DNA from: Candidatus Bostrichicola ureolyticus
GTDB lineage: Bacteria > Bacteroidota > Bacteroidia > Flavobacteriales > Blattabacteriaceae
Direction of reading: 5' to 3'
Assembly: GCA_029851125.1 (NCBI GenBank)
Contig: CP100319.1
Span: 263,762-327,761 of the forward strand
Length of the DNA stretch: 64,000 bases
Below the pieces are notes generated by a model. The model saw only the letters and a program-made list of their open reading frames with translations. It ran no database searches and was not told the DNA's origin. Shown piece after piece: positions 6,368-61,946 of this stretch. The translations under genes were made by a program, and so were the position numbers. How positions within the stretch are numbered: position 1 is the first letter of the stretch; each line of letters begins with the position of its first letter.

Positions 6368-6898
6368 CTATCTATTATAGTATTTATATTGTTTAATCAT
6401 TTTTTTTACTATTTCTATTTCTTTATTTAATAATCCATGTTTATCATTTTTTTTCACCTCTAATAATAAATTAGATGCATAATTTTTGTTTCCTTTTATT
6501 ATAGATGCTATAGCTATATTTAATTGGGCTATTGCTATATTGTGTTTAAAATAAAGTCCAATTGATAGAGCTTTTTGCATAAAATATTCTGATTTATCAA
6601 AATTTATATTTGAATAAATTAATCCATTTAAAAAATAAAAATATGCTTTTTGATTTTTTGTAAGTTGTAAATCAGGATTTTTAATAAAACGTAACCATTT
6701 TTTTGCATTTTCTATATCTTTTTCTTTTAGTTTAAAAAAGGCTAATAAAAGAAACTCATTTTGGAAAAATAAAAAAATAAAAATCGAACTTAATAAAAGT
6801 AATAATATACTAATTATAGTTGTTTTTATAATAAAAAAACTATATATAGCAATAATTAAAATTATTAATGATATATATAATTTGATATATTTATTCAT
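6368..6898 (-). CDS. Putative membrane protein with TPR-like helices
   Basis: I do not recognise a named family. The 176-residue protein has one or two N-terminal hydrophobic segments (residues about 8-52, almost only I, L, F, S) followed by a soluble helical part. That part contains patterns resembling tetratricopeptide repeats (AYFYFLNGLIYSNINFDKSE and IAIAQLNIAIASIIKGN), suggesting a membrane-anchored protein-protein interaction module. It overlaps the esterase gene by 8 bp and precedes ileS by 1 bp, so it is co-transcribed with them. Function unknown. Confidence 0.6.
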   Translation of the reverse strand: MNKYIKLYISLIILIIAIYSFFIIKTTIISILLLLLSSIFIFLFFQNEFLLLAFFKLKEKDIENAKKWLRFIKNPDLQLTKNQKAYFYFLNGLIYSNINFDKSEYFMQKALSIGLYFKHNIAIAQLNIAIASIIKGNKNYASNLLLEVKKNDKHGLLNKEIEIVKKMIKQYKYYNR

Positions 6899-7523
6899 AT
6901 TTTTCTTTTACCCATTTAGTTAAATCATAATAATTATCATAATTCAAATTATGTTCTGCTTCATATTCTCTATAATAATAATTAATATTATAATTGTCTA
7001 ATATTATAGGACCTTGTTTTGCCCATTCTATAGGTATTATAGAATCATTTTTTCCATGAGAAATAAAAAAATCTAATGTTTTATAATTTTCTTTTTTTGT
7101 ATTAGGTAATAAATTTGTATCAGGAAATCCACTTAATATGATTATTTTTTTTATTATTTCAGGATAATGTAAGGCAATAGCATAACTTAAAATAGCTCCT
7201 TGACTAAATCCACATAACCATATGTTATTTTTATTTAAATTATAAAATAATATAGAGTCATGAATAAATTTAATTATTTCTTTAATTGATTTAATAGCTT
7301 GTGAAGTATTATATATTTTTATATCATTATAAATATTATACCAACAAAAACCGATATCATTCAAATTATGGAATGCACGTAAACTAATAAAAAAAAAATA
7401 TTGTGGTAATTCTTTTGTCAAAGAAAAAAAATCATTTTCATTTCCACCATATCCATGTAATAATAGAAATAATGGTGGATTCTTTTTTTTTATTAAAGGT
7501 TGTTTAGTTATATGTTTTAGCAT
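6891..7523 (-). CDS. Alpha/beta-hydrolase, phospholipase/carboxylesterase type
   Basis: This 210-residue protein belongs to the small serine-hydrolase group that includes phospholipase/carboxylesterases. The oxyanion region LLLHGYGGNENDF, nucleophile elbow GFSQGA (Ser), aspartate in SHGKNDSIIP and histidine in EAEHNL form a complete catalytic triad. There is no signal peptide, so it is cytosolic; the substrate cannot be predicted. ATG start, divergent from sucC across a 76-bp AT-rich gap that must carry both promoters. First gene of the esterase-TPR-ileS-dksA-lspA run. Confidence 0.83.
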   Translation of the reverse strand: MLKHITKQPLIKKKNPPLFLLLHGYGGNENDFFSLTKELPQYFFFISLRAFHNLNDIGFCWYNIYNDIKIYNTSQAIKSIKEIIKFIHDSILFYNLNKNNIWLCGFSQGAILSYAIALHYPEIIKKIIILSGFPDTNLLPNTKKENYKTLDFFISHGKNDSIIPIEWAKQGPIILDNYNINYYYREYEAEHNLNYDNYYDLTKWVKEKYE

Positions 7524-7599
7524 AAAAAATTATAAATAATTTAAATAAATATATAAAATCTTCTTTTATATTATTAATTATTATAAATAATATGATTAT

Positions 7600-12500: not shown

Positions 12501-12938
12501 TTATAATAAAATTTTAGGTTTTTGAGCATCATGATTGTGTTTTGATCCTACATATATATATAAATTTTTAAGAAATTGTTTTCTTAACCTATTTTTAGGT
12601 AACATACCTTTTATTGATTTTTCCAAAATTTTTTTAGGATTTCTTTTGAATAATTCTTTAAAAAGAATTATTTTTTTTCCTCCAGGATATCCTGTATAAG
12701 TAATATATGTTTTATTATTCCATTTTTTTCCAGTTAGTTTAATTTTATCAACATTTATAACAATAATATTGTCTCCTATATTAACATTATTAATAAAATA
12801 TGGTTTATGTTTTCCTCTTATTAAAATAGCAATTTTTGAAGATAATCTCCCTAGAATTTTATCCGTAGCATCTATAATAAACCATTCTTTTTTAATTGAT
12901 TTATTATTTGAAATAGTTTTAAAACTTAAAGTATTCAT
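12501..12938 (-). CDS. rplM: 50S ribosomal protein L13
   Basis: L13 is an early-assembly 50S protein. The 145 residues show WFIIDATDKILGRLSSKIA, NNVNIGDNIIVINVD, YTGYPGG and GMLPKNRLRKQ. It is the first gene of the minus-strand rplM-rpsI-rpsB-tsf-terC run, whose promoter must lie in the adjacent AT-only spacer. Confidence 0.97.
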   Translation of the reverse strand: MNTLSFKTISNNKSIKKEWFIIDATDKILGRLSSKIAILIRGKHKPYFINNVNIGDNIIVINVDKIKLTGKKWNNKTYITYTGYPGGKKIILFKELFKRNPKKILEKSIKGMLPKNRLRKQFLKNLYIYVGSKHNHDAQKPKILL

Positions 12939-13200
12939 TATATATATAATATTATTATATATAATATTATTATAATTATATATATTATCATTAATAATAA
13001 ATATTATATATATATATAATATTTTTATTATATATATATATAATATTTATTTATATAAATAAATAATATAAATATATTATATATTAATTATATATAATAT
13101 ATTATTATATATATAAATATATTATATATAATTATATATATAATATATTTATATTATAAAATATTTTAATATTATATGTTATATAAATATATATATATAT

Positions 13201-13480
13201 ATATATATAAATATATAATAATTATATATAATAATTATATAAATAATAATTATATATAATAATTATATATATATAAATATATAATAATTATATATAATAA
13301 TTATATAAATAATAATTATATAATAATTATATATATATAAATATATAATAATTATATATAATAATTATATAAATAATAATTATATAAATAATAATTATAT
13401 AAATAAATAATAATTATATATAATAATTATATAAATAATAATTATATAAATAATAATTATATATAATAATTATATATATA
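13201..13480. repeat. AT-only tandem repeats, unit 64-66 bp
   Basis: The phrase ATATATATAAATATATAATA recurs at 13201, 13267 and 13331, giving periods of 66 and 64 bp. After the third copy the array decays into shorter 13-15 bp units of the type AATAATTATATA. Composition is exclusively A and T. It resembles a bacterial satellite produced by slippage or a DNA-unwinding element. Confidence 0.75.
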
Positions 13481-13535
13481 TATATATAAATATATTATGT
13501 GACTTTATTAATAAAATAATATTTGTGATTTTGTT

Positions 13536-13735: not shown

Positions 13736-15676
13736 ATGAGTAAAATTATAGGTATAGATTTAGGTACTACTAATTCGTGTGTTGCTATAATAGAGGGAAA
13801 GGATCCCACTGTTATACCTAATTCAGAAGGAAAGAGAACTACACCTTCTACCGTGGCTTTTGTAGAAGGTGGTGAAATAAAAATTGGTGATCCAGCTAAA
13901 CGTCAAGCTGTTACTAATCCTTCAAAAACAATTTTTTCTATAAAACGTTTTATGGGAAGAAAATTTTCTGAAGTTACTGAAGAAATTAAAAATGTTCCTT
14001 ATAAAGTAATAAAAGGTAGTAATAATACTCCTAGAGTAAGTATTGATGGCAAATTATATTCTCCTCAAGAAATATCAGCTATGATACTTCAAAAAATGAA
14101 AAAAACAGCAGAAGATTATATAGGACATGAAGTAAGTAGAGCAGTAATTACTGTTCCAGCATATTTTAATGATTCCCAACGACAAGCAACTAAAGAAGCT
14201 GGAGAAATAGCTGGATTAAAAGTTGAACGTATTATTAATGAACCTACTGCAGCTGCATTAGCTTATGGTATAGATAAACATAAAGAATCTAAAAAAATAG
14301 TGGTATATGATTTGGGAGGAGGAACTTTTGATATTTCAATATTAGAATTAGCTGATGGTGTCTTTGAAGTTCTTTCAACTAATGGAGATACACATTTAGG
14401 AGGTGATGATTTTGATAGTGTTATTATTAATTGGTTGTCTATGACATTTAAAAATCAAGAAGGTATAGATCTTCGTAAAGATCCTATTGCACATCAACGT
14501 TTAAAAGAAGCTGCAGAAAAGGCGAAAATTGAACTATCTTCAAGTATGCAAACTGAAATTAATTTACCTTATATAACTGCTACAGCTTCTGGTCCTAAAC
14601 ATTTAATACAAACACTTACAAGAGCTAAATTTGAACAACTTTCTGAAAAATTAATTAATCGTTCTATGGAACCTTGCAAAAAAGCTCTAGATGCGGCAGG
14701 ATTAAAAGCTAAAGATATTGATGAAGTAATTTTAGTAGGTGGCTCGACACGTATACCTAAAATACAAAAAGAAGTAGAAATTTTTTTTGGTAAACAACCA
14801 TCTAAAGGAGTAAATCCTGATGAAGTGGTAGCTATTGGTGCTGCTATTCAAGGAGGTGTATTAACTGGTGATGTAAAAGATGTTCTTTTATTAGATGTCA
14901 CTCCATTATCTTTAGGAATAGAAACTTTAGGAGGAGTTTTTACTAAATTAATAGAATCTAATACAACTATTCCTACAAAAAAATCAGAAATATTTTCTAC
15001 TGCTACAGATAATCAACCAGCTGTTACTATACGTGTAGGACAAGGTGAACGTTCTATGTTCAATGATAATAAAGAAATTGGACGTTTTGACTTAGTGGAT
15101 ATTCCACCTGCTCCAAGAGGTACTCCTCAAATTGAGGTTACTTTTGATATTGATGCTAATGGTATTTTAAATGTTTATGCTAAAGATAAAGCTACAGGAA
15201 AAGAGCAATCTATTCGTATAGAAGCTTCATCAGGGTTAAGTAAAGAAGAAATTGAAAAAATGAAACTAGAAGCAAAGGAAAATGCTGAAAAAGATAAAAA
15301 AATAAAAGAAGAAGTTGAAAAATTAAATTCTGCTGATAGTTTAATATTTAATAGTGAAAAACAATTAAAAGAATATGGAGATAAAATTTCAGAAAATAAT
15401 AAAAAAAATATTGAAGAATCAATAAAAAAACTTAAATCTGCATATAATGATAAAAATTTATCTATGATAGATGAAGCTACAAAAGAAGTAAACGAAGCTT
15501 TTTCAGCTGCTTCTAAAGAAATTTATGAAGCTCAACAAGCTCAACAAGCTCAACAAGCTCAACAAGCTCAACAAGCTCAACAAGCTCAACAAGCTGAAAC
15601 AAATGATTCTTCAAAAAAAACTGATTCTAAAAAAAATGAAAATGTACAAGATGTTGATTTTGAAGAAGTTAAATAA
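13736..15676 (+). CDS. dnaK: Hsp70 chaperone DnaK
   Basis: DnaK is the ATP-driven cytosolic chaperone that works with DnaJ and GrpE (60275-61946 here). The 646-residue protein has [12 protein letters not shown] at its start, [12 protein letters not shown] and [10 protein letters not shown] in the ATPase domain, followed by the substrate-binding domain with [17 protein letters not shown] and the helical lid. The C-terminal tail contains seven AQQ triplets encoded by a 9-bp tandem repeat and ends DVDFEEVK, close to the family's EEVD-like end. A long AT-rich leader precedes the ATG. Confidence 0.98.
15530..15592 (+). repeat. 9-bp tandem repeat in dnaK tail (7 copies)
   Basis: Seven exact copies of GCTCAACAA encode AQQ repeats in the disordered C-terminal tail of DnaK. 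The unit length is a multiple of three, so copy-number change by slippage keeps the frame. Confidence 0.95.
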
Positions 15677-50966: not shown

Positions 50967-50986
50967 ATAGTTAAAAACATTTTAAT

Positions 50987-51532
50987 ATTATAAATATAAA
51001 AGATAAATATTATCGTATAAATGAATATATAGTTGCTACTAAAGTACGTTTAGTTGGAGAAAATGTAAAAATAGGTATTTATACATTAAAAAATGCACTT
51101 AAAATGGCTAAATATAATGAACTAGATTTAGTAGAAATTAATTCTAAAACTGATCCACCTATATGTAAAATACTTGAATATAAAAAGTTTTTATACGAAC
51201 AAAAAAAGAAACAAAAATTAATTAAATTAAAACAAGATAAAGTTATTATAAAAGAAATACGTCTTGGGCCACAAACAAATATTCATGATATTGAATTTAA
51301 AATAAAAAATGCTAAAAAATTTTTAAAAGATAAAGAAAAAGTTAAAATATCTATTTTTTTTAAAGGACGTTCTATAATGTATAAAGATCATGGAAAAGTT
51401 CTTTTATTTAAATTTGCAGATGCACTAAATCTTTATGGAAAAGTAGAAAAAATGCCAATAATGGATGGAAAAAAAATGTATATGATTATATCACCAATAA
51501 AATATTCAAAACATGACAAAATTGAAAAGTAA
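50987..51532 (+). CDS. infC: Translation initiation factor IF-3, probable ATT start
   Basis: IF-3 prevents subunit joining and checks start-codon choice. The frame extends upstream of ATG 51104, giving [19 protein letters not shown], which are conserved IF-3 N-terminal residues, so the ATG is internal. The most plausible start is ATT at 50987, a rare codon known as the infC start in E. coli, giving 181 residues. The frame is open from after a TAA ending at 50974. The second half has [18 protein letters not shown]. Its end overlaps rpmI by 20 bp. Confidence 0.9.
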
Positions 51533-53031: not shown

Positions 53032-53850
53032 ATGGATAAATATAAAACAACAATAGAAAAAGTTTGGCACTATAAACAAAATTGGAAAATTACCGAAATA
53101 AAAAATATTATTTTTGATGTTATAAAACAACTTGATAACGGTACACTTAGGATAGCTACATATGATAAAAATGATAAAAAATGGATAATAAATGAATGGA
53201 TTAAAAAAACAATTCTTATGTATTTTTCAATCAAAGAAATGGAACTTCTAGAAGTAGGTCCATTCGAATTTTATGACAAAATTCCCTTAAAAAATTCTTA
53301 TGACGAAAAAAAAGTTCGTGTAGTTCCTCCTGCTATAGCTAGATATGGATCTTATATTTCTCCTGGTTCTGTTTTAATGCCTTCTTATGTTAATATTGGT
53401 GCTTATATAGGGACTAATAGTATGATAGATACGTGGGCTACAGTAGGTAGTTGTGCGCAAATTGGATCTAATGTCCATATAAGTGGAGGTGTTGGGATAG
53501 GTGGGGTTTTAGAACCTTTACAATCTGCACCTGTTATTATTGAAGATAATGTTTTTATTGGATCTAGATGTATTTTAGTTGAAGGCGTTTATATAGAAGA
53601 AGAAGCTGTTTTAGGCGCTAATGTAGTTTTAACAGCATCAACTAAAATTATAGATGTTACTGGTAACAATCCTATTGAAATAAAAGGTAGAGTACCAAAA
53701 CGTTCAGTAGTAATACCAGGATCATATTCTAAAGAATATCCTGCTGGACGATATAATGTTCAATGTGCTTTAATAATTGGAAAACGTAAGGAAAGTACAA
53801 ATAAAAAAACATCACTTAATGAAGTTTTACGAGAACATAATATTATTTAA
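53032..53850 (+). CDS. dapD: Tetrahydrodipicolinate N-succinyltransferase
   Basis: DapD succinylates tetrahydrodipicolinate on the way to diaminopimelate and lysine, useful for peptidoglycan and for a host short of lysine. The 272-residue protein has a left-handed beta-helix with hexapeptide repeats around residues 100-210 (VRVVPPAIARYGSYISPG, GAYIGTNSMIDTWATVG, GGVGIGGVLEPL) and the C-terminal region with VVIPGSY. It is the only amino-acid biosynthesis gene clearly seen in this window. Confidence 0.96.
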   Translation: MDKYKTTIEKVWHYKQNWKITEIKNIIFDVIKQLDNGTLRIATYDKNDKKWIINEWIKKTILMYFSIKEMELLEVGPFEFYDKIPLKNSYDEKKVRVVPPAIARYGSYISPGSVLMPSYVNIGAYIGTNSMIDTWATVGSCAQIGSNVHISGGVGIGGVLEPLQSAPVIIEDNVFIGSRCILVEGVYIEEEAVLGANVVLTASTKIIDVTGNNPIEIKGRVPKRSVVIPGSYSKEYPAGRYNVQCALIIGKRKESTNKKTSLNEVLREHNII

Positions 53851-53863
53851 GTTTAACATAATA

Positions 53864-55276
53864 ATGTTAAATAATATATTTAATAAAAAAATATTTAAGA
53901 TAATAAGTAAATCTTCTAAAGAAATTAAACAAGATTCTTATATTGTAGGAGGTTACGTACGAGATTTTTTATTGGGTAAGCAATCTCAAGATATTGATAT
54001 TGTAACTACAGGAAGTGGTATTCATTTAGCAGAGCAAGTATCTAAAAATATTGAAAAAAAACCTAAAGTAAATTTTTTCAAAAAATTTGGTACTGCTATG
54101 TTGATATACGAAAATGATAAAGTAGAATTTGTAGGAGCTAGAAAAGAATCATATAATATTAATAGTCGAAATCCTCTAATAGAAAAAGGTTTACTTATAG
54201 ACGATCAAAATAGAAGAGATTTTACTATTAATTCTATAGCTATTAGTCTTAATAATAATGATTACGGAAGGTTAATAGATCCTTTAATGGGAAAAGATGA
54301 TTTAAAAAAAAAAATTATACGGACTACTAGAGATCCCAATATAACTTATTATGATGATCCTCTAAGAATGATGCGTGCTATACGTTTGGCTACACAATTA
54401 AAATTTAAAATTGAAGATTTATCTTATGAATTTATAAAAAAAAATAAAGAAAGAATACATATTGTATCTATAGAACGTATTATGGATGAATTTAATAAAA
54501 TACTTTCTTGTGAAAAACCATCTATAGGTATTAATTTACTTTATGATTCTGGGTTATTGAATATTATATTACCTGAATTGACAGCACTGAAAGGAATAGA
54601 AGAAAAAGATGGTTACACACATAAAGATAATTTTATTCATACTATTGAAGTAATAGATAATATTAGCAAAAAAACAAATTATCTTTGGCTAAGATGGGCA
54701 GCATTACTTCATGATATTGGAAAAACTAATACTAAAAAATATTTGTCAGGTATTGGCTGGACGTTTCGTTCACATGAAGTTTTAGGTTCTAAAATGATAC
54801 CGTATATATTTAGACGTCTTAAACTTCCTATGGGAGTTACAATGCGATATATTCAAAAAATAATACGATATAGTTCACGTCCAATTGCATTAATAAGTGA
54901 TAAAACTACTGATTCTGCTATACGTAGATTATTATTTGATTTAGGAAATGATATTGAAGATTTAATAATGTTATGCGAAGCAGATATTACAACAAAAAAT
55001 TTATCAAAAAAACAACAATACAAAAGTAATTTTAATTTAGTAAGTACTAAACTTAAGCAAATTGAAAAAAAAGATAAAATACGTAATTGGCAACATCCTA
55101 TATCAGGAGAATGTATTATGAATACTTTTAATTTAAAACCTTGTAAACAAGTAGGTATTATAAAAAATGCTATAAAAGAAGCTATTTTAGAAGGAGAAAT
55201 AAATAATGAAAAAAATGATGCTTATATATTAATGTTAAAAAAAGGAAAAGAATTAGGATTAAAAACAAATAAATAA
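53864..55276 (+). CDS. cca: CCA-adding enzyme / HD-domain tRNA nucleotidyltransferase
   Basis: This 470-residue protein adds CCA to tRNA 3' ends. It has the class II nucleotidyltransferase motif GGYVRDFLLGKQSQDIDIVTTG, RRDFTINSIA, the DDPLRMMRAIRLA segment and an HD domain in LHDIGKTNTKKY. Needed because the tRNA-Cys gene has no CCA. Starts at ATG 53864; an in-frame codon at 53777 overlaps dapD. The stop lies in an AAAT repeat run. Confidence 0.94.
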   Translation: MLNNIFNKKIFKIISKSSKEIKQDSYIVGGYVRDFLLGKQSQDIDIVTTGSGIHLAEQVSKNIEKKPKVNFFKKFGTAMLIYENDKVEFVGARKESYNINSRNPLIEKGLLIDDQNRRDFTINSIAISLNNNDYGRLIDPLMGKDDLKKKIIRTTRDPNITYYDDPLRMMRAIRLATQLKFKIEDLSYEFIKKNKERIHIVSIERIMDEFNKILSCEKPSIGINLLYDSGLLNIILPELTALKGIEEKDGYTHKDNFIHTIEVIDNISKKTNYLWLRWAALLHDIGKTNTKKYLSGIGWTFRSHEVLGSKMIPYIFRRLKLPMGVTMRYIQKIIRYSSRPIALISDKTTDSAIRRLLFDLGNDIEDLIMLCEADITTKNLSKKQQYKSNFNLVSTKLKQIEKKDKIRNWQHPISGECIMNTFNLKPCKQVGIIKNAIKEAILEGEINNEKNDAYILMLKKGKELGLKTNK

Positions 55277-55294
55277 ATAAATAAATAAATAAAT
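55267..55294 (+). repeat. AAAT tetranucleotide run
   Basis: Seven copies of AAAT between cca and the nrnA-like gene. The cca stop codon (55274-55276) lies inside the run. A similar shorter AAAT run follows dnaK at about 15673-15690. Confidence 0.85.
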
Positions 55295-55296
55295 AT

Positions 55297-56300
55297 ATGG
55301 ATGACTTAAAAAAAATATTTAAAAGTTTAAAAAAAAAATTACATTATTATCACATAGAAATCCAGATGGTGATGCTATAGGTTCATCATTAGCAATGTTT
55401 TTATATTTAAAAAAACTTAACCATGATGTTTGTATGATTCTTCCTACAAATTATCCTAATTTTTTAAAGTGGTTACCTAATAATGAAGATTTTATAATTT
55501 ATTCAGAAAAAAACAAAATAGTCATAAAAGAAAAAATTATATATTCAGATATAATAATATTTATAGATTTTCATGATTTATATAGAATAAAACCAATTGA
55601 TATTTTTTTACAAGAATCAAAAGCAATAAAAATGTTAATTGATCATCATGATAATTTTAAAAATTATGATTTTTTTGATTTAAAATTTTATGATCCTACA
55701 GCCTCTTCTACAAGTATAATAATTTTTAGAATTATAAACAGTATGGGTGATTTTAATCATGTTGACATACGTATAGCTACCTGCTTATATGTAAGTTTAG
55801 TAACAGATACTGGTTCTTTTCGTTTTTCGTATATTACTCCTGAAACACATTATATAGCTGCCAAATTATTAGAAACTGGTATAGATATATCTTATGTAAA
55901 TAATAGAATATATAGCATATATACTAAATATCGTATGTTCCTATTAGGAAAAACTTTGCAAAACGTCAAAATTATATCTCTATATAGAACTGCTTATACC
56001 ATAATTAATGCTTATGATTTAAAAAATAATGGAGATACTGAAGGTTTTGTTAATTATGGTTTAGATATAAAAAATATTGTATTTTCTTTGATATTTATTG
56101 AAAATCTTAAGTTTATTAAAATATCCTTTCGGTCTAAAGGAAATTTTGATGTTAATGCTTTTGCAAAAAAGCACTTTTCGGGAGGAGGACACAAAAATGC
56201 TGCAGGAGGCATCTATTATAAAAGTTTAAATGAAACTATTAAATATTTTCTTAGCATATTACCTATATATAAAAAAATTCTTCAAAGAATAAACTTATAA
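55297..56300 (+). pseudogene. nrnA: DHH/DHHA1 phosphoesterase, NrnA-like, frameshifted at an A10 tract
   Basis: NrnA-like proteins degrade short RNAs and pAp. ATG 55297 opens MDDLKKIFKSLKKK and then reaches a stop; after one base is added at A10 (55329-55338) the other frame continues as ITLLSHRNPDGDAIGSSL. That frame contains LIDHHDNFKN and GGGHKNAAGG and stays open to 56300. As written it is broken; with 11 A residues it would encode about 334 residues. Transcript slippage at the A tract may rescue it. Alternatively ATT at 55338 could serve as start. Confidence 0.8.
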
Positions 56301-57155
56301 TTATTTTACATGTCTATCTGCATGATATGAAGAGCGAACTAAAGCTCCACTTTCTACATACAAAAAACCCATTTTTAATGCTATATTTTCATATTTTTTA
56401 AACTGTTCTGGTGAAATAAAAGTCCGTACAGCTATCTGTTGTTTTGATGGTTGTAAATATTGTCCTATTGTAATAATATCTACATTAGATTTTTTTATGT
56501 CTGCCATTGTTTCTAATATTTCTTCTTCAGTTTCTCCTAAACCTAACATTATGCCTGTTTTAGTACGACTTTGTCCGTTATATTTTAAATAACGTAAAAG
56601 TTCTAAACTACGATCATACTTAGCTTGAATACGTATTTCTTTAGTTAATCTTCGAACAGTTTCTAAATTATGGGATATAACTTCAGGTTTTGTATTTATA
56701 ATTTTATCTAAAAATTGGGTTTTTCCTTTAAAATCAGGTATTAATGTTTCAATAGTGGTGAATGGATTAAAATATCGTATAGTTTTAATAGTTTTTATCC
56801 ATAGTAATGATCCCATATCCTCTAAATCATCTCTATTTACAGAAGTAATTACAGCATGTTTTATATTCATTTTTTTTATAGAAAATGCTATTTTTTCAGG
56901 TTCATTCCAATCTATCATTTGGGGACGGCCAGTTTTTACACTACAAAATCTACATGAACGAGTACAAATATTTCCTAATATCATAAAAGTAGCTATGCCA
57001 TTTCCCCAACATTCACCAATATTAGGGCAATTTCCACTTTGGCAAATAGTGTTTAATTTATACTTATCTACTAGATTTTGTAATCTATGATAATTTTTTC
57101 CTATTGGTAATTTTACTCTTATCCAATTAGGTTTTTTTTTATTATCTATTTTCAT
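56301..57155 (-). CDS. lipA: Lipoyl synthase
   Basis: LipA inserts sulfur atoms into octanoyl groups on lipoyl domains such as that of PdhC. The 284-residue radical SAM enzyme has the auxiliary cluster cysteines CQSGNCPNIGEC and the SAM cluster CTRSCRFC, plus the C-terminal serine in VRSSYHADRH. Normal length. Convergent with the nrnA-like gene without spacing and divergent from the Nif3-like gene. Confidence 0.97.
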   Translation of the reverse strand: MKIDNKKKPNWIRVKLPIGKNYHRLQNLVDKYKLNTICQSGNCPNIGECWGNGIATFMILGNICTRSCRFCSVKTGRPQMIDWNEPEKIAFSIKKMNIKHAVITSVNRDDLEDMGSLLWIKTIKTIRYFNPFTTIETLIPDFKGKTQFLDKIINTKPEVISHNLETVRRLTKEIRIQAKYDRSLELLRYLKYNGQSRTKTGIMLGLGETEEEILETMADIKKSNVDIITIGQYLQPSKQQIAVRTFISPEQFKKYENIALKMGFLYVESGALVRSSYHADRHVK

Positions 57156-58305: not shown

Positions 58306-59088
58306 ATGAAAAAACAAGAATTTACATTTGAAAAACAGTTAAGAGCATTATATAAATTACAATTAATAGATTCTCGTATTGATGAAATACGAGATTATCG
58401 AGTCAGTCTTCCTTTAGAGGTAAAAAAAATAGAAAATGAAATTAAAGTATTAATACAAAAAATAGAAAATATTAATAATGAAATTAATTTATTGTCTCAA
58501 AATATAAATAAAAAAAATAAAAATATTAAAGAAGCAGAAGACATTATTAAAAAATACAACGTACATAAAATAAATGTTAATAATCGTGAATATGAATTTC
58601 TTAATAAAGAAATTGAATATCAAGAATTAGTAATAGAATTATCTTTAAAAGAAATTAAAGAATACAAATTAAAAATTAATAATAATAATATTTATATACA
58701 AGAGTTAGAAGTTATTATTAAAAATCATAATGATAATCTTTTTAAAAAAAAAGAAATTTTAAATCAAATTTTTTTAGAAAGTAAAAAACAAGAAAAATTT
58801 CTTTTAGAAAAAAAAGAATTGTGTTCTCAACAAATTGAAGATAATTTATTACAAACTTATAAAAAAATACGCCATAATGTTGAAGATGGATTGGCTGTAG
58901 TACCAATAGAAAGAGGAGTTGCAGTAGGATCTTTTTTATTTATTCCACTTCAAACATATTCAGAACTTTTTCAAAGAAAAAAAATAATTATAGATGAACA
59001 TAGTGGTAGAATACTCATAGATAATGAGTTAGCTGAAAAAGAAAGAAAAATAGTAGAAAATGAAATCTTTTCAAGATATAATTCCTGA
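58306..59088 (+). CDS. Coiled-coil protein related to COG1579 zinc-ribbon family, cysteines absent
   Basis: The 260-residue protein is mainly a long coiled coil (residues about 20-190, rich in I, K, E, N) ending in DEHSGRILIDNE. Homologues of this type usually end in a C4 zinc ribbon and often sit beside nif3, as here (3 bp after it). The four ribbon cysteines are replaced (GVAVGSFLFIP, DEHSG), so zinc binding is unlikely; from memory several flavobacterial relatives share this. Nucleic-acid binding is a guess. It overlaps mnmA by 18 bp. Confidence 0.8.
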   Translation: MKKQEFTFEKQLRALYKLQLIDSRIDEIRDYRVSLPLEVKKIENEIKVLIQKIENINNEINLLSQNINKKNKNIKEAEDIIKKYNVHKINVNNREYEFLNKEIEYQELVIELSLKEIKEYKLKINNNNIYIQELEVIIKNHNDNLFKKKEILNQIFLESKKQEKFLLEKKELCSQQIEDNLLQTYKKIRHNVEDGLAVVPIERGVAVGSFLFIPLQTYSELFQRKKIIIDEHSGRILIDNELAEKERKIVENEIFSRYNS

Positions 59089-61376: not shown

Positions 61377-61946
61377 TTATTTTGCTACAATTACTTTAGC
61401 ATGTCTAATAACTTTTTCTTGTAATAAATATCCAGATTCAACAACATCCATAATTTTATTTTTTAGATTATCTTCATGTGCTGGTACTTGCGTAATAGCT
61501 TCATGAAAATCTGTATTAAAATCAGATCCTTTTTCAACTTTTATTTTTTTTAAACCCTCATATTCTAATAATTTCATTAATTTATCTTGGATAAGTATCA
61601 TACCTTTATATTTTTTAATTTCTTCAATTCCTCGTTCAAAATCATCTAAAATAGGTAATAACCCCATAATAAGAGCTTTATTTGCTGTTTTGAATAGTTC
61701 AAACCGCTCTTTTTGAGTACGTTTTTTATAATTTTCAAATTCTGCATAAAGTCGCAAAAATCTATCTTTTTCTTCTGCTATTTTTTTTATTAAAAAATCT
61801 TTTTCATCTTTTTCAGATTTTAAATCTTTTTCATCTTTTTCAGATTTTAAATCTTTTTCATCTTTTTCAGATTTTAAATCTTTTTCATCTTTTTCAGATT
61901 TAGTCAAATTTGAATTTGATAAGTCTTCGGATAATTTATCTACCAT
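61377..61946 (-). CDS. grpE: Nucleotide exchange factor GrpE
   Basis: GrpE releases ADP from DnaK. The 189-residue protein starts at ATG 61946 ([13 protein letters not shown]); an upstream in-frame start at 62000 adds residues unlike GrpE. An N-terminal stretch of four SEKDEKDLK repeats (from a 27-bp tandem repeat) precedes the long helix ([22 protein letters not shown]) and the C-terminal beta domain with [12 protein letters not shown] and [11 protein letters not shown]. Paired with dnaJ as a short operon. Confidence 0.93.
61798..61902 (-). repeat. 27-bp tandem repeat in grpE (3.9 copies)
   Basis: Three full copies and one nearly complete copy of a 27-bp unit encode SEKDEKDLK repeats in the charged N-terminal tail of GrpE. 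The unit is in frame, so copy number can change without disrupting the protein. Confidence 0.95.

Follow-up and report, generated by a model that had tools for sequence, protein, structure and literature searches.

Does a gene whose reading frame changes by one base within a run of ten A still make its protein, and if so, by which route? Breaks in poly-A runs of symbiont genomes often get a pseudogene annotation, and the nrnA-like locus of Candidatus Bostrichicola ureolyticus, a Bacteroidota symbiont of bostrichid beetles (PMC10284843), presents such a break. Here, we analyzed a 64-kb window, i.e., the whole stretch of DNA under study, from a genome of 344,793 bases in a single contig, and compared it with the sister genome, Candidatus Bostrichicola ureolyticus LBRU2 (CP100318; ~90% protein identity to the window genome). 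Judged by homology and by the pattern of substitutions, the nrnA-like gene appears functional despite the break.

The frame break and the product of the second frame

In the window, the nrnA-like gene stands between cca and lipA (Table 1). The frame of ATG 55297 runs as MDDLKKIFKSLKKK into the A10 tract, which is flanked by T on either side, and its full reading is MDDLKKIFKSLKKKLHYYHIEIQMVML, with 13 codons beyond the tract before the TAG at 55378–55380. ATT 55338 (ITLLSHRNPDGDAIGSS...) lies in a different frame, which stays open between 55323 and a stop codon whose last base is 56300. The frame change falls exactly at an A/T run of at least about nine (A10 in the window, A9 in the sister), and the break is confirmed as real. 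By our own count, about 14 further A/T runs of at least ten lie inside unbroken open frames of the 64-kb window, so an A10 run alone is ordinary there. The initial annotation had the ATG frame stopping and the family frame resuming after the A10; the break itself is borne out, and the stop lies 13 codons past the tract, not right after KKK. Its description of both sides as normal coding sequence, with the DHH and GGGHKNAAGG motifs intact, holds, as does its guess of an AT-rich insect symbiont, the genus being Bostrichicola. An (AAAT)n repeat of eight units (55263–55295) spans the end of cca and the cca–nrnA spacer; the sister lacks it and has a much shorter spacer.

Table 1. Positions of the features discussed, numbered within the window.
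Feature	Position	Strand	Remark
Probable infC start, ATT codon	50987..50989	+	ATG/GTG/TTG unavailable at the conserved N-terminus
cca-type tRNA nucleotidyltransferase gene	53819..55276	+	directly upstream of the nrnA-like gene; control
nrnA 5' part	55297..55380	+	ATG frame: MDDLKKIFKSLKKK, then out-of-family LHYYHIEIQMVML, TAG; N-terminus aligns with family
nrnA 3' part, DHH/DHHA1 phosphoesterase open frame	55323..56300	+	homologous residues from ATT 55338
A10 tract, frame-change site	55329..55338	+	T+A9 at the equivalent place in the sister
ATT codon, possible alternative start	55338..55340	+	upstream context at 83rd percentile
Motif I HRNPDGDA	55353..55376	+	3' of the tract, 5' of ATG 55395
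DHH motif	55641..55649	+	
GGGHKNAAGG motif	56181..56210	+	DHHA1 domain
lipA	56301..57155	-	convergent downstream neighbor; control

The second frame is not open by chance, to judge from its predicted 320-residue product, a homologue with relatives of solved structure. A profile search found Pfam DHH (E 8e-18) and DHHA1 (E 1e-8) in the 3' part of the gene, and the Bacteroides structures 3W5W/4PY9, DHH-DHHA1 proteins of like domain architecture and motifs, match the whole 3' part at E ~1e-65. All catalytic motifs are kept (HxxPDGDA, D, DHH, D, GGGH). The NCBIfam NrnA equivalog model gives 70.8 bits, below its cut-off of 350, and we therefore limit the name to NrnA-like; a nanoRNase/pAp phosphatase activity is one that we infer rather than assign. 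A second NrnA-type gene was not found in either Bostrichicola genome, the only other DHH match lying in a frame of RecJ length, nor was a stand-alone Orn-type RNase_T gene found in either; the lone RNase_T match in the sister sits within a 1189-codon frame that is taken for DNA polymerase from its size. As this is the only nanoRNase-type gene found, annotating nrnA as lost would misrepresent RNA turnover in this symbiont. The gene can be lost, though, since several related symbiont genomes of 200–300 kb have no detectable nrnA.

The sister genome and selection on the gene

The sister has an equivalent frame break, with GTTTT+A9+TTACA in place of GTTT+A10+TTACA. The total length of the T+A run is equal in both genomes (TTT+A10 and TTTT+A9), so that a single pre-split deletion together with one T/A substitution accounts for both. 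In the sister, a TAA directly before the run closes the family frame, which opens only at TAA AAA AAA ATT, leaving no other upstream start for it there. A break common to two species is unlikely to be recent. The initial annotation had offered "recent or tolerated"; the matching arrangement in the sister makes the former unlikely and the purifying selection described below favors the latter. It had also proposed a count of A residues in related strains (8, 10 or 11), and the sister gives A9 with the frame equally broken.

Every other relative inspected reads through the tract site in frame, with at least 11 residues upstream of the first strand. Relatives of Blattabacterium size (about 600 kb) typically carry an in-frame A10 run coding KKK-I, and the peptide of the ATG frame likewise terminates in KKK, as in Blattabacterium and others. 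Its match to the family N-terminus has P 0.0003 overall and 0.027 with KKK fixed, and when the residues of the peptide itself are permuted P is about 0.1; the match is partly driven by KKK. Among 51 other family members with a match, none has an internal stop save one with a stop at the C-terminal end; a similar break in Blattabacterium was considered and rejected, the lone match with a TAA having it at that end, away from the tract.

The run itself tells little of selection. Most of the long runs in the 7 kb around it have equal lengths in the two genomes; this pair conserves long A runs in any case, so the keeping of this one is no evidence for selection, and we rejected it as a signal. Exceptional conservation downstream of the tract was likewise dismissed, as the 102-base identical run found there is surpassed by three others in the 7 kb.

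Between the window genome and the sister, the downstream part of nrnA has a dN/dS of 0.36 (95% bootstrap 0.20–0.62), and five neighbors (cca, lipA, NIF3-like, dapD, ruvX) have 0.26–0.46. Amino-acid changes number 31 where 47 are expected, and 1000 neutral simulations never fell under 37; a stop was gained in 985 of these 1000, and the real 3' part has none. All three indels between the species are multiples of three. A zinc-ribbon CdsZ-like coiled-coil protein (58306–59085) is an outlier at dN/dS 0.84, evolving faster than its neighbors.

Lost genes do decay in Bostrichicola, as dnaB illustrates: it is intact in the window genome (15726–17054, minus strand), and in the sister (about 273113–273872) it is an obvious pseudogene, with only remnants left, many stops in them, and eight of nine indels out of frame. 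No stops or out-of-frame indels of this kind were found in nrnA beyond the tract. The decay of dnaB postdates the species split and has thus had less time than the break in nrnA has existed, if the break is ancestral. Two species of one genus here provide both a true pseudogene and a broken gene that is not decaying, which makes for a clean test that a gene can stay functional with a break of this kind. No other dnaB copy was found in LBRU2. The window genome also has murC and murG above the family cut-offs, whereas in the sister murG was not found and the murC-like match is decayed. Gene losses have been published for Lyctus symbionts (PMC10284843), and from these together with murC/murG it is plausible that the window genome comes from a Dinoderus symbiont; if so, the break would predate the split of the Lyctus and Dinoderus symbionts.

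How the frame may be restored

With a matching break in a related species and no decay, the gene is probably still expressed, through slippage on the A run. In the scheme that we favor, a poly-A run coding for lysine would have lost one A before the divergence of the two known Bostrichicola species; translation would begin at ATG 55297, and RNA polymerase would slip on A9–A10 so that some mRNAs gain one A or lose two. Corrected mRNAs would read ...SLKKK-ITLLSHRNPDGD... and give a full-length protein of ~334 residues, and uncorrected ones a 27-residue dead-end peptide. We give the complete scheme, i.e., a working gene, a break older than the divergence and a rescue by the polymerase, about an even chance; that the polymerase is the agent, and at which rate it would slip, we infer. 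Close precedents in Buchnera, Blochmannia, Citrobacter and Walczuchella make slippage the best explanation. Please note that the A9 run of the sister is near the lower limit for efficient slippage, which counts against it.

As the break comes just 14 codons past the start codon, a downstream start is a serious alternative. The main rival to slippage is initiation at ATT 55338, within the A run or directly behind it, and we allow it a modest chance. It needs no recoding and would yield a protein without the N-terminal extension, beginning at the first beta strand as (M)TLLSHRNPDGD. Bacteroidota leave Shine-Dalgarno signals unused and favor A at −3 and −6 (PMC6847099), and A stands at both positions before this ATT. 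Scored against the 53 gene starts in the window, its context reaches the 83rd percentile, and that of the sister's ATT the 90th; ATG 55297 is also strong, at the 90th. In infC (50975–51532, plus strand), 4 kb upstream, ATG, GTG and TTG are absent before the conserved N-terminus in both genomes, and the start there would have to be ATT or ATA, ATT being the most likely. This lineage thus probably makes use of ATT or ATA starts, and for nrnA the ATT stays a serious candidate; in the sister, the only opening of the family frame leads into this very codon. The initial annotation had listed ATT 55338 as an alternative start, and so far it survives. What speaks against it is that at least 11 residues precede this point in all relatives inspected, and that an ATG in good context with a family-like KKK peptide is kept in both species despite a strongly diverged preceding spacer. 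Also, ATT starts are rare outside infC. The other start that had been listed, ATG 55395, can be set aside as unlikely: no gene start in the window has a context that scores as low, and the product would lose motif I (HRNPDGD).

If the mRNA is unchanged, the ribosome might instead slip by −1 on A_AAA_AAA within TTA AAA AAA AAA TTA. This heptamer is in the correct frame in both genomes, and correction at an oligo-A run has been inferred for chloroplast atpB (PMC8254509); however, in E. coli A_AAA_AAA provokes far fewer shifts than A_AAA_AAG (PMC5009743), stimulation of the Shine-Dalgarno type is improbable in this phylum, and a search for an RNA stimulator downstream of the tract gave no folding signal (z −0.46 and −0.59 in the two genomes, nothing unusual), which leaves ribosomal slippage unlikely. 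A homopolymer error in both assemblies, with the true DNA one A longer in each, is distinctly unlikely. Homopolymers do tend to be shortened in long-read assemblies, and Nanopore reads were part of the L. brunneus dataset (PMC10284843); but Illumina reads were used for it as well (PMC10284843), the equal lengths of most long runs in the 7 kb around the tract and the many intact frames over runs of ten or more in the window speak against such errors, and an identical mistake would be needed at one place in two separate genomes. Least of all do we believe that the break killed nrnA and that decay is under way. The absence of a detectable nrnA from the smaller related genomes would fit, yet the normal dN/dS, the zero stops and the purely in-frame indels across a two-species divergence do not, and real decay looks otherwise, as in dnaB and murC of the sister. 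Equally doubtful is that, within polymerase slippage, the break is kept as a throttle, the slippage frequency setting the level of the only detected nanoRNase; if true, the turnover of tiny RNAs, which can prime transcription, would be coupled to the behavior of the polymerase.

Comparison with known cases and other observations

Poly(A) tracts reportedly rescue frameshifted genes in Buchnera and Blochmannia (Tamas et al. 2008, Wernegreen et al. 2010). The nrnA case resembles these in that a single-base break lies in an A run of at least nine in an otherwise intact gene of an AT-rich insect symbiont, and in that the break is common to more than one species, with a normal evolutionary rate. It differs in phylum (Bacteroidota), in gene (nrnA), in the nearness of the break to the start, and in being known here from DNA sequence. 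For Buchnera and Blochmannia, corrected transcripts of 12–50% have been reported (PMC5009743), and frameshifts in homopolymer runs, shared between species, are retained in Blochmannia, as the B. vafer genome showed (PMC3017870). A survey of Buchnera transcripts, on the other hand, had no case of frame restoration, which counts against slippage (PMC5574713). In tssM1 of Citrobacter rodentium, an interrupted gene has its frame restored by slippage of about 20–25% at an A11 run, as we propose for nrnA; there, in contrast, protein and mass spectrometry data demonstrated the slippage, both products are required, and Citrobacter is a culturable enterobacterium rather than a symbiont of reduced genome (PMC4256274). 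Closer in lineage is Walczuchella monophlebidarum, a related Flavobacteriia insect symbiont with comparable breaks, i.e., frameshifts in homopolymeric tracts; these are noted as possibly still functional, and the broken genes are annotated as pseudogenes, unlike our reading of nrnA (PMC3971599). The phenomenon is thus already known from Buchnera and Blochmannia; new is the nrnA case in Bostrichicola, shared and non-decaying, which would add to it a beetle symbiont of the Bacteroidota and a gene that is the only one of nanoRNase type found in its genome.

Our survey for other frame breaks covered the 64-kb window and its counterpart region in the sister. At 6368–7529 (minus strand), adjacent ORFs of 179 and 212 codons face a single ORF of 232 codons in a shorter space in the sister, which suggests gene loss there. 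A broken dnaK in the sister, hinted at by a TTG-started ORF of 262 amino acids, turned out to be a fragment-boundary effect, and the frame is open. Tandem repeats were also seen in the window. About 560 bases of degenerate AT-only repeats (ATTATTATATATAAT-like) lie at 12937–13498, between minus-strand genes and dnaK; an in-frame repeat of AAGCTCAAC, 7.6 copies at 15528–15595, falls in the Gln-Ala-rich C-terminal part of dnaK; and four copies of a 27-base unit repeat in frame within another open frame at 61795–61901.
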